Shown here: one piece after another, positions 6,416 to 64,000 of the stretch
Layout: each line of letters starts with the position of its first letter
Numbering within the stretch: the first letter of the stretch is position 1
Origin: Acinetobacter sp. C32I
Lineage (GTDB): Bacteria > Pseudomonadota > Gammaproteobacteria > Pseudomonadales > Moraxellaceae
DNA length: 64,000 nucleotides
Direction: 5' to 3'
NCBI RefSeq assembly: GCF_023702715.1
Contig: NZ_CP098480.1
Coordinates: 806,001 to 870,000 of the forward strand
Notes under the pieces: generated by a model
The model's database searches: none
What the model saw: only the letters and a program-made list of their open reading frames with translations
Told to the model about the DNA's origin: nothing
Made by a program: the position numbers and the translations under genes

Positions 6416-7954
6416 ATGATCAGTTTCGATTTATCCCACGCCCAAATTGCCGTGATTGGCTCGGGCACCATGGGAATTGGGATTGCCCAATTGGCAATCA
6501 CCAATGGTCATTCTACGGTGCTCTATGATCTTGACCGTGAAAGGACCCAGCAGGCCGTTGAAGGATTGCATCAGACCTTCGCGAAGTTGACAGAAAAAGG
6601 CAAGATGACCTCTGAGCAGGCACAGCAAGCACTTTCACGTTTGAGCATTGCTGATCAAATCGAGACATTGGCAGGTGTCGATTTGGTGATAGAAGCGGTA
6701 GTTGAAAAGCTGGAAGTGAAACAGGCTTTGTTTAAGCAGTTGGCGACGATTTGTAACGACCAAACTATTTTAGCCACCAATACCTCATCTATTTCAGTGA
6801 CAGCAATTGCATCTACTGTTCCACATCCTGAGCGTATAGTTGGACTGCATTTCTTCAATCCTGCACCAGTGATGAAACTGGTGGAGATTGTACAAGGCTT
6901 AAAAACGCCAATTGATTTATGTCAGGCCTTAAAAGCCTTGATGCTGGCTTGGAACAAAATTCCTGTGTTAACCAAGTCAACACCAGGCTTTATCGTCAAT
7001 CGGATTGCCCGTCCTTTTTATGCAGAAGCATTTCGCGCCTTGCAAGAACAGGTCACTACATATGACCAGCTCGACTATGCCCTAAAGCAGTGCGGTGGTT
7101 TTGCGATGGGACCGTGTGAGTTAACCGATTTAATTGGGCAAGATGTTAATTTCTCAGTCACTCAAAGTGTTTATGAAGCCTTCTTTTATGAACCGCGTTA
7201 TCGTCCAAGCCTGATTCAGAAAGAATTGGTGGATGCGGGTACATGGGGACGTAAATCAAAGCAAGGCTTTTATCGCTATGATGAAAAAAATCAGTATGCG
7301 ACTTTTCAGCCTCAGCTTATTACTGCGCCGTCTTTTCATGCTGATGTTCAAGTCAAAGGTACATGGGCTCAATGTCCGCATGTATTAGAACGTCTGGGCC
7401 TAAGTCATGCTTTAACAAGCAATGAAAATATCATCCAAATTGATGATATTGATCTACGTTTAAGTCATGGAGAATCTGCCAATATCGATTATCCAAATCG
7501 TAAAACGGTATTGATGGATTGGCATCATCATTTTGAGCAGGCACAGGCGGTGGTGCTGAGTCATAACCATCTTTGCCAAGTTGAAGATTTGGGAAAAATC
7601 GAAGCGTTTTTTGCGCAACAACAGATCAAGGTACTTTGGATCAGCGATCATCCCGCACTGTTAACTTTACGTACCATTGTCTTGTTGATCAATGAAGCCT
7701 GTGAGGCCAGTCTGCATGGTGTTGCGAGTATGGAAGATATTGATAATGCGATGAGATATGGTGTCAATTATCCTAAGGGACCGTATCAATGGATGATGCA
7801 ATTGGGCGCTGAATATGTCTTGGCAACGTTAAACAATTTATATGCCATCTATGGCGAAGAAAAATATCGTGCAAGTCTTTATCTCAAGCAATACGTGGCA
7901 AAGCAGCAAAGTGTGATTGCTGACGATTCAAAAAATTTAACAGAATGTGCATAA
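6416..7954 (+). CDS. paaH: PaaH, 3-hydroxyadipyl-CoA dehydrogenase
   Basis: A 512-residue 3-hydroxyacyl-CoA dehydrogenase. The N-terminal NAD-binding motif is IGSGTMGIGIAQLAI; the catalytic region reads GLHFFNPAPVMKLVEIV and STPGFIVNRIARPFYAEA. A second 3HCDH C-terminal repeat (EACEASLHGVASMEDIDNAMRYGVNYPKGP) accounts for the extra length compared with single-repeat enzymes. It oxidises 3-hydroxyadipyl-CoA to 3-oxoadipyl-CoA. paaI, which lies between paaH and paaJ in Escherichia coli, is absent: only 12 bases separate these two genes here. Confidence 0.94.
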   Translation: MISFDLSHAQIAVIGSGTMGIGIAQLAITNGHSTVLYDLDRERTQQAVEGLHQTFAKLTEKGKMTSEQAQQALSRLSIADQIETLAGVDLVIEAVVEKLEVKQALFKQLATICNDQTILATNTSSISVTAIASTVPHPERIVGLHFFNPAPVMKLVEIVQGLKTPIDLCQALKALMLAWNKIPVLTKSTPGFIVNRIARPFYAEAFRALQEQVTTYDQLDYALKQCGGFAMGPCELTDLIGQDVNFSVTQSVYEAFFYEPRYRPSLIQKELVDAGTWGRKSKQGFYRYDEKNQYATFQPQLITAPSFHADVQVKGTWAQCPHVLERLGLSHALTSNENIIQIDDIDLRLSHGESANIDYPNRKTVLMDWHHHFEQAQAVVLSHNHLCQVEDLGKIEAFFAQQQIKVLWISDHPALLTLRTIVLLINEACEASLHGVASMEDIDNAMRYGVNYPKGPYQWMMQLGAEYVLATLNNLYAIYGEEKYRASLYLKQYVAKQQSVIADDSKNLTECA

Positions 7955-61758: not shown

Positions 61759-62220
61759 GAGGTGTTCCTCTAATCAAAAAAGTATAAATCAATGCTGTAT
61801 GAAGTTAGATCCATATGGCGCTTGATCGCTACGCATATACCAATATAAGGTTTATTAATGAAATTTCAATGAAACTGTATGGTACGAGTGTAAGTTTACT
61901 CCATAATTTATCCTTATAATATGGAAAAGCCTTATATATCAAGAACTTTGTTGTAATTTTATATAAAACAACTGATTAAGATGATTTTTATTGTGCATTA
62001 AATTGCTTGTTTTATGGTATTTCGCTCTTTTTAAAGGTTTATTTATATATTGATTACTGCCATATACGTTTTAACAAAATAAAATGTAAATGATATTTGA
62101 GATTGTATTAGTTCAATTGCAGAATAAACAATGAAGATTGTAAATGGATTTGAAATCATAAAAATTGGATCGTGAATGCTTTATTCAAAATATTTAGAAT
62201 GAATAAGAGTCAACGCGGAT
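61759..62220. other. AT-rich intergenic region without a supported gene
   Basis: 462 bp of AT-rich sequence upstream of the YARHG-like gene, presumably holding its promoter. No frame of useful length or recognisable motif is visible on either strand. Confidence 0.55.
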
Positions 62221-62259
62221 TAAAAAATAAAGGCTCACTAAACTAAATAGTGAGCCTTT
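62221..62259 (-). terminator. Intrinsic terminator of the candidate RNA
   Basis: AAAGGCTCACTA (62229-62240) and TAGTGAGCCTTT (62248-62259) form a perfect 12-bp stem. A run of six T follows on the minus strand only, so it ends leftward transcription; no coding gene lies upstream of it on that strand. Confidence 0.85.
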
Positions 62260-62424
62260 GGGGTGGCGTCCTTCGTTCTTTCGATTGACTACGGGCTTAT
62301 CTTAATCAATTTAAATAATTGTTAATTACCGCTTGTGTCAATGGGAGTAAAATTACTGACCCAACGGCAGGAACCCTGTGAAGTATCAACACAACCATCG
62401 GGAAGTCCTTGCTCCTGCACCGCT
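62221..62424 (-). ncRNA. Candidate structured small RNA, about 200 nt
   Basis: On the minus strand TATAAT (62425-62430) is followed by a non-coding segment and an intrinsic terminator (stem at 62229-62240 and 62248-62259, then six T). The expected transcript starts near 62418 and can fold into three hairpin domains: GCAGGA with TCCTGC enclosing CCC/GGG and TGTG/CACA; GGG-AGTA with TACT-CCC; and ATTGAC with GTCAAT enclosing an AATT-rich stem. AAGGAC occurs twice in predicted unpaired positions. No frame is convincing. The -35 is weak. I do not recognise the family; 6S RNA is a possibility by length only. Confidence 0.5.
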
Positions 62425-62592
62425 ATTATAGTGAATACTGGACTTGCATTGGAAGTAATCCTAATCTTTTGATTGCGATGTGTCTGAGATTTAAATATAA
62501 TTAATTGATATTTATTTGGTTTTATAAATTAAATTTCTAATTTATTACCTAAGCGCCATTGAAATTTAAGCTTTTTAACAAGAATATGAAAA

Positions 62593-62874
62593 ATGCTGAA
62601 ATATATTAAAAGCAACCTTCCCATCCTTATCTTGATCATTATTGTTATAGGGGGACTCGGCTATCCCCTTTACTCAGGTAAATGGATTATGGCTCCCCGA
62701 CTAAGCGAAATTGACAGTAAATGTTATGGGGTAGATGTACCAAGCAGCATTGAGCATAACAAAGTACTACTTTTTTGTTCATGTGTTCATACGGTCGGTA
62801 TTGAAAATAAAGAAGAGAAATATAAGTATTGTACCAATAGAATGGATAAAATTACTTACCGACAAGATTCTTGA
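62593..62874 (+). CDS. Hypothetical single-pass membrane protein
   Basis: A 93-residue protein with one N-terminal hydrophobic helix (LPILILIIIVIGGLGYPLY) and a hydrophilic remainder with Cys in CYGVD, LFCSCVH and KYCTN. It probably sits in the inner membrane with the Cys-containing part outside. No recognised family. AAGAATATGAAA is only a weak ribosome binding site. Confidence 0.55.
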   Translation: MLKYIKSNLPILILIIIVIGGLGYPLYSGKWIMAPRLSEIDSKCYGVDVPSSIEHNKVLLFCSCVHTVGIENKEEKYKYCTNRMDKITYRQDS

Positions 62875-62966: not shown

Positions 62967-63387
62967 ATGAAAAAAATATTAATATTTCTAATAAATTCAG
63001 TTGTGACTGTTTCTGTGTATAGTGCTGATGATTTGTTTAATAAGCCTCCATCACTTTTAATCTTAAAAAAATGACACACCCGAATATGAAATCAAAAGTC
63101 GTGAACATGTTGATTTCTTTGAGTCAGCAAAGCAACAAGAACAAGATCGTCTAAATCAGCATGATGTAAATGCGGCGAAGATGTATGAAACTCGGTCAAA
63201 TACATCTAATATGAGCCCATTTGAACGATCTCAATATCTTCTAAAAAACAATGATACTCGTGCTTTAAATGCGTATGAATATGAGCAACAATTAAATTCA
63301 TTGCAGAAGGCTCGAAATAGAGGCGTCATTTCAGACCGAGATTATAATTACCCAGCAAAATCATATGCCTTTAGAGCAAAAGAATAA
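62967..63387 (+). pseudogene. Frameshifted exported-protein gene
   Basis: ATG 62967 begins a clear signal peptide (MKKILIFLINSVVTVSVYSA) and reads on as DDLFNKPPSLLILKK before a TGA at 63072. The break is a run of seven A (63065-63071). With one A fewer, the frame continues without a stop as NDTPEYEIKSREHVDFFESA and on to the stop at 63387, for 139 residues. The second part, rich in Gln, Arg and Asn (AKQQEQDRLNQ, NAYEYEQQLNSLQKARNRG), is also open from the internal ATG 63181 but lacks a signal there. Family unknown. It may be a real mutation, a sequencing error or a slippage site. Confidence 0.7.
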
Positions 63388-63904: not shown

Positions 63905-63930
63905 CAAAATAAAAGCCCATAGTTTGGGCT
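63905..63930 (-). terminator. Leftward terminator at the right edge
   Basis: AGCCCA (63914-63919) and TGGGCT (63925-63930) form a short stem that on the minus strand is followed by TTTATTTTG, so it probably ends a leftward gene entering from the right. Confidence 0.6.
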
Positions 63931-63968
63931 CTTAATAAAGACTTCACTGTGACCATGATTCTTTTATC

Positions 63969-64000
63969 CTACTCAGCTTCAAAGGAAACTGTTAGGGGCG
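63969..64000 (-). CDS. Possible 3' end of a leftward gene (partial)
   Basis: One minus-strand frame reads PLTVSFEAE and stops at TAG (63969-63971), 39 bases before a leftward terminator. Other frames stop too soon to judge. The fragment is too short to identify. Confidence 0.35.
   Translation of the reverse strand, partial: PLTVSFEAE

Follow-up and report, generated by a model that had tools for sequence, protein, structure and literature searches.

A structured RNA gene family shared by Acinetobacter chromosomes and viral contigs

Results and discussion

The DNA analysed here, a stretch of 64,000 nucleotides from the genome of Acinetobacter sp. C32I (hereafter the window), carries on its minus strand, at 62430-62222, an RNA gene in which a folded body lies between a -10 box and a terminator. 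Judged by comparison with its relatives, this RNA is one copy of a family without a match in Rfam, with members of about 160-220 nt that share the -10 box, a conserved nested first domain, central hairpins that are exchangeable and a conserved tail; the copies scanned for a terminator have one too. Members occur in phage contigs, where the neighbouring phage genes lie on the other strand, and also in a few Acinetobacter chromosomes, at sites that retain few phage genes. The reading that we favour, with moderate confidence, is that of a prophage-borne 'moron' RNA gene that acts in trans through two conserved AGGAC segments.

Signals and consensus fold

The gene opens with a perfect TATAAT (62425..62430, minus strand, as are all parts of the gene), and the first transcribed base probably lies near 62418. 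The -35 region of this copy is poor, and the hexamer at 62430-62425 was not listed by a promoter scan of the window. A TAWAAT is present at the equivalent place in 22/23 copies, beginning 11-12 nt ahead of the first conserved base, which is a match to the consensus and not a measure of activity. The body of approximately 160 nt between TATAAT and terminator is followed by an intrinsic terminator found by a terminator scan (62222..62259), with a stem of 12 pairs (62259-62229) and then the T-rich tail ATTTTTTAAT. Terminators were found in both copies scanned (2/2), and a T-run of at least four occurs within 110 nt after the conserved tail in 22/23 copies; the exception, L084, diverges just past the tail, beside what appears by eye to be an insertion sequence.

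Taken alone, the window offers modest evidence for an RNA gene: its single terminator-like site compares with a shuffle mean of 0.8 (sd 0.8), and the fold z-score of the RNA is -2.65, with 2/200 shuffles equally good. It is the comparison of copies that makes the case firm, because TAWAAT recurs in 22 of the 23 and the helices covary. The initial annotation, which had proposed an unassigned structured RNA gene from the TATAAT and the minus-strand terminator, is thereby upheld in both signals and in its overall assignment.

The copies fall into two classes, class A (the window type) and class B, which is longer and has extra hairpins ahead of the terminator. The consensus is nested. Domain 1 (62367..62418 in the window copy) comprises P1 (62418-62412 with 62373-62367), a 9-nt bulge CRAGGACUU, which holds the first AAGGAC (62405..62410), a CCC/GGG helix (62402-62400 with 62376-62374) and a small hairpin, P3. 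In domain 2, placed at 62274..62366 by the comparative consensus, a CGUU/AACG closing helix (62366-62363 with 62277-62274) surrounds P4 and P5/P6, and P5 of the window copy reads AUUGAC/GUCAAU (62342-62337 with 62289-62284). The 3' end consists of a single-stranded tail, AAGGACGCCACCC, ahead of the terminator; in the window copy this conserved tail is AAGGACGCCACCCC (62260..62273), including the second AAGGAC (62273-62268).

Aligning the stems across copies, as the initial annotation had proposed, revealed the paired substitutions expected of a conserved fold. Both sides had changed in 10/35 pairs of class A (11 of 13 copies), compared to 1-3 when the partners were slid, and in 7/36 pairs of class B (8 of 10 copies), compared to 0-2; the fold was drawn from the same sequences as those tested, which biases the comparison in its favour over the slid versions. 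The near-duplicates L010, L011 and L021 and the damaged L055 were left out of the pair counts, and L012 contributed only its 5' domain. In either class, 0/500 shuffles had as many doubly changed cells; as many doubly changed pairs were seen in 14/500 (class A) and 1/500 (class B), and as many pair types in 54/500 and 56/500, respectively. Support is uneven along the fold: P1 has both-side changes in 3/7 pairs of class B and in none of class A, its pair 5-51 is unpaired in 2/8 class B copies, and P3 is poorly aligned and poorly supported (79% and 48% of cells paired). One-sided changes stay paired as G-U on the RNA strand, while the opposite strand would have A-C mismatches, which favours the RNA strand. 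Altogether, the paired substitutions among the aligned copies argue for the nested fold.

A pseudoknot pairing CCCGAUGG with CCGUUGGG was also considered. It looked good on 12 copies, but on 23 (20 distinct) pair 20-63 was broken in three and pair 18-65 in one; since the nested P4 also explains the same changes, the pseudoknot was not retained as the main fold. Both of its helices still contain one doubly changed pair each.

Coding potential

The initial annotation had described the segment as lacking coding potential, which holds in part. Nearly all copies have AAGGA, a 7-nt spacer and ATG, and in the window copy this start opens 30 codons. The shared frame is broken in 5/24 copies, however, which makes the RNA the likelier product than a peptide; coding was accordingly rejected as the main reading, and the family RNA is probably non-coding. 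A short mRNA or dual-function RNA, encoding a peptide that starts MVVxxLHRVPAVG, is a slender prospect: in addition to the conserved start, at least 13 codons can be read in the shared frame in 19/24 copies, but a stop follows the second codon in L080, L081, L082 and L123, a 4-nt insertion shifts the frame in L011, and beyond codon 13-15 it is the RNA pairs that are conserved and not the peptide.

Relation to known RNAs

The covariance search suggested by the initial annotation returned no family for the RNA, 6S and Csr/Rsm included. In Rfam 15, nothing in the window matched at gathering scores; within 61900-62800 the lowest E was 2.4, and the sole match overlapping the RNA had E = 9.1 (17.1 bits, compared to a gathering score of 44.2). 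For class B, no likeness to RNase P or another Rfam family was found, the best match of its copies having E = 1.3. No description of the RNA family was recognised from titles and abstracts in a full-text search of an open library, and a prior description elsewhere, as in supplementary files or subscription journals, is possible.

The suggestion that the RNA might be 6S RNA, which was based on size, did not survive. The size is similar, but there is no covariance match to RF00013 at the RNA, and three 6S genes stand in tandem at another place in the genome (G000 C1:6439-6620, 6755-6943 and 7082-7270, minus strand; 110, 101.4 and 56.9 bits, all above the Rfam cut-off), so that the chance of a 6S identity is practically nil. 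Mimicry of a type I-F repeat by the RNA, as an anti-CRISPR, is very improbable as well. It was considered since many copies contain GTTC.CTGCCGT, like the start of I-F-like repeats, and such repeats (at most 2 mismatches to the pattern used) occur in 18/60 genomes of the genus. The partner GGCAG and the repeat end are nevertheless absent from the aligned copies, CTGCC covaries instead with the 5' strand of P1, and the genome of strain C32I has no such repeat. In some of the 18 Acinetobacter genomes the I-F-like repeats number more than 100.

The two AGGAC segments raise the question of a Csr/Rsm-type sponge, the other hypothesis of the initial annotation. At the 5' site AGGAC is kept in 22/23 copies, and the tail is kept in 22/23, with GGACG in 21/23 and GGATG in one; one copy lacks the tail. 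Both AAGGAC are unpaired in the comparative consensus, as had been proposed from the window copy, although energy folding does not single them out: over 22 copies the mean unpaired probability of AGGAC was 0.37 at the 5' site and 0.45 at the 3' site, compared to 0.42 for all positions, and minimum-energy folding of the window copy leaves both partly paired. Titration of CsrA by these segments has a small chance of being their role. CsrA is encoded in the genome, AGGA persists at the 5' site in 22 of the 23 copies, and the RNA resembles RsmY/CsrB-type sponges as a small RNA of the same host with GGA unpaired in the consensus. Those sponges, in contrast, have many GGA in loops, while only two conserved GGA are unpaired in the consensus here. 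No GacA-type box (at most 2 mismatches) lies within 300 nt upstream of any of the 23 copies, by a pattern that matches once in the whole 64 kb window, by chance or otherwise; the invariant bases continue beyond GGA (CUU, CGCC), and the family matches none of the Csr/Rsm families of Rfam.

Better Csr candidates exist in the same genome. Two RsmY-like RNAs on the minus strand, C1:2920125-2920254 (L164) and C1:2921545-2921674 (L165), contain 5 and 6 GGA and each have a GacA-type box (1 mismatch) at -70 (2/2), and owing to this combination of box and GGA repeats they are likely, by sequence, to be the Csr sponge RNAs of this Acinetobacter. Their scores of 32.3 and 26.6 bits fall below the Rfam cut-off of 57, and the score alone proves little, as the RsmY search also gives sub-cut-off matches in the control genomes of Thermotoga maritima and Lactococcus lactis. 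According to one report, csrA is essential if A. baumannii is to grow on rich medium (PMC12802169).

Distribution of the family

The genome of strain C32I (G000) contains two further copies, as found by BLASTN. The second (C1:869992-870125, minus strand) lies directly beside the window copy, at the window end. It belongs to class B and starts beyond the window (G000 C1:870125), so that its 3' part occupies 63905..64000 on the minus strand, the exact 3' end being placed from a hairpin and T-run. The third is at C1:1093902-1094047 on the plus strand.

Within the genus, BLASTN matches at E <= 0.01, some of them short, were obtained in 12/149 genomes. Searched with a covariance model built on the 5' domain (R1), 12/175 genomes matched at E <= 0.1, of which nine, with 15 copies, scored at E <= 1.8e-16, and the three weak ones (E 0.077-0.082) were dropped. 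A model of the class B core (R2) matched 10/175 genomes with 16 copies, including G125 at E = 1e-7, where the copy (L178) is a decayed relic near a lysozyme-like ORF. Beyond the genus, a search of 293 genomes of the order gave a strong score in strain C32I only, the other eight of nine matched genomes (E 0.0056-0.099) being dropped, and a class A core model (R3) matched at E <= 0.05 only this genome among 369 of the class and none of the 368 others; both of these wider searches used stricter filters, which lose weak matches.

A pattern scan of GTDB yielded 13 stretches, eight of them supported by R1, and these eight come from Acinetobacter sp. Ac_5812, genomosp. 15BJ, sp. ANC 3929, A. modestus, A. 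higginsii, A. proteolyticus and sp. MB5. The five dropped were L072 (22 bits with R1), L070 (15.3 bits), and L064, L069 and L074, which gave nothing at E <= 1. In IMG/VR, nine viral contigs with ten copies were confirmed by R1, while 40/48 candidate viral contigs in one search and 33/42 in another (<= 20.1 bits) were dropped. The GenBank phages, PLSDB plasmids and E. coli genomes searched contained no match to the family.

Copies appear to come and go: the lysozyme-side locus in G125 (L178) and, with less clarity, the locus of the window copy in G120 (L016) retain remnants of the RNA. Three copies are damaged (L012, L055 and L178), so some strains can evidently do without the RNA.

Conservation at the orthologous site

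Where the site of the window copy could be compared between genomes, the RNA had changed less than its intergenic flanks in two of three cases, with 1/186 substitutions compared to 31/621 for G024 (p = 0.004) and 2/186 compared to 36/622 for G071 (p = 0.005). For G162 the direction was reversed (22/152 in the RNA and 51/622 in the flanks, p = 0.03), because the central P5 segment at this chromosomal site is there another version than in G000, still able to pair. Such an exchange could fit a phage RNA of modular build, with central hairpins that can be swapped between constant ends. Specificity would then reside in the centre, and a shared host factor would be contacted by the AGGAC ends, making an RNA-only device for competition or immunity between prophages; we consider this distinctly unlikely.

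Genomic context and possible function

Seven of the ten IMG/VR copies lie between phage genes, adjoining terminase (terS, four copies), ninB (two) or portal (one) genes. A divergent terS lies 36-51 nt from the RNA start in L081, L082, L084 and L123, and a divergent ninB at 47 nt in two copies, L078 (assigned by PHROG and Pfam) and the second copy of L083 (assigned by eye). The viral contig L083 (35.9 kb) contains two RNA copies 5.3 kb apart, the one beside ninB and a first one between the head-protease and portal genes. In L077, L079 and L080, neither terS, ninB nor portal is a direct neighbour. Outside the RNA, the ORFs closest to the ten IMG/VR copies lie on the opposite strand, with the exception of a 69-aa ORF upstream in L080.

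In Acinetobacter sp. MB5 (L076), the RNA is convergent with a gene matching a PHROG of Hdf-like antirestriction proteins (E = 4.6e-30), a gene whose best PHROG is one without known function and whose Pfam match is below the cut-off. In strain C32I, the second copy adjoins an endolysin gene and the third a phage metallopeptidase gene. Around the window copy no phage gene was recognised, terS and ninB included, and neither PHROG nor Pfam gave a match for the ORF at 62593, so that this copy does not lie between phage genes; we infer that the surrounding stretch is a prophage remnant. At window 62968-63387 (plus strand) lies an ORF that looks interrupted by eye, whereas in L065 it runs to 154 codons. 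R2 matched neither two A. baumannii phage records nor a further Acinetobacter phage with related flanks, and no exact empty site was defined.

In six of the ten IMG/VR copies, 36-51 nt separate the RNA start from the start codon of the divergent gene (terS or ninB), which raises the possibility of a cis-antisense RNA. Such an RNA would pair with the terS or ninB leader of a middle or late phage transcript and keep these genes down in the lysogen, and incoming phages that carry the same cassette could be affected by the copies as well. This mode of action is possible but unlikely, since other copies sit beside the portal gene (L083) or convergent with the antirestriction-like gene (L076), three have no such neighbour (L077, L079 and L080), and the window copy has neither terS nor ninB beside it. 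The phage antisense RNAs OOP of lambda and sar of P22 likewise have their own promoter and are transcribed against phage genes; unlike them, the RNA of this family is longer, has a conserved covarying fold and differs in its neighbours from phage to phage.

As the copies adjoin different genes, and one is conserved without terS or ninB, a role in trans is the best explanation, and it is the one contained in the favoured reading of a prophage-borne moron RNA. The RNA would be transcribed in the lysogen and, as a non-coding regulator, would act in trans. Its fold may present one AGGAC in the bulge of domain 1 and the other just past the closing helix of domain 2, and these segments would be putative contact sites for an RNA or protein partner, to the benefit of the prophage. 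Complementarity of the conserved segments to the RNase P, 6S and RsmY-like RNAs of the genome did not exceed 6 nt. The nested covariation, the TAWAAT, the conservation of AGGAC and tail, the IMG/VR contigs, the broken frame and two of the three flank comparisons are consistent with the moron reading; the comparison with G162, the extent to which shuffles reached the numbers of pairs and pair types, the energy folding of AGGAC and the three damaged copies argue against it.

Phage moron RNAs and the sRNAs of enterobacterial prophages have their own promoter and terminator, lie between phage genes and are apparently independent of the late programme, and the Acinetobacter family appears to be like them in all three respects. 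It differs in that no sequence or Rfam relation to them was found, in its elaborate conserved fold with an exchangeable centre, and in its restriction, among the genomes searched, to Acinetobacter, in addition to the viral contigs.

Conclusions

The analysis describes an RNA family with covariation support that was found neither in Rfam 15 nor in the open full-text literature search. Its fold and the two defined AGGAC sites are directly testable. The results further suggest that conservation of a phage RNA can persist even at a chromosomal site that has kept little else of a prophage.
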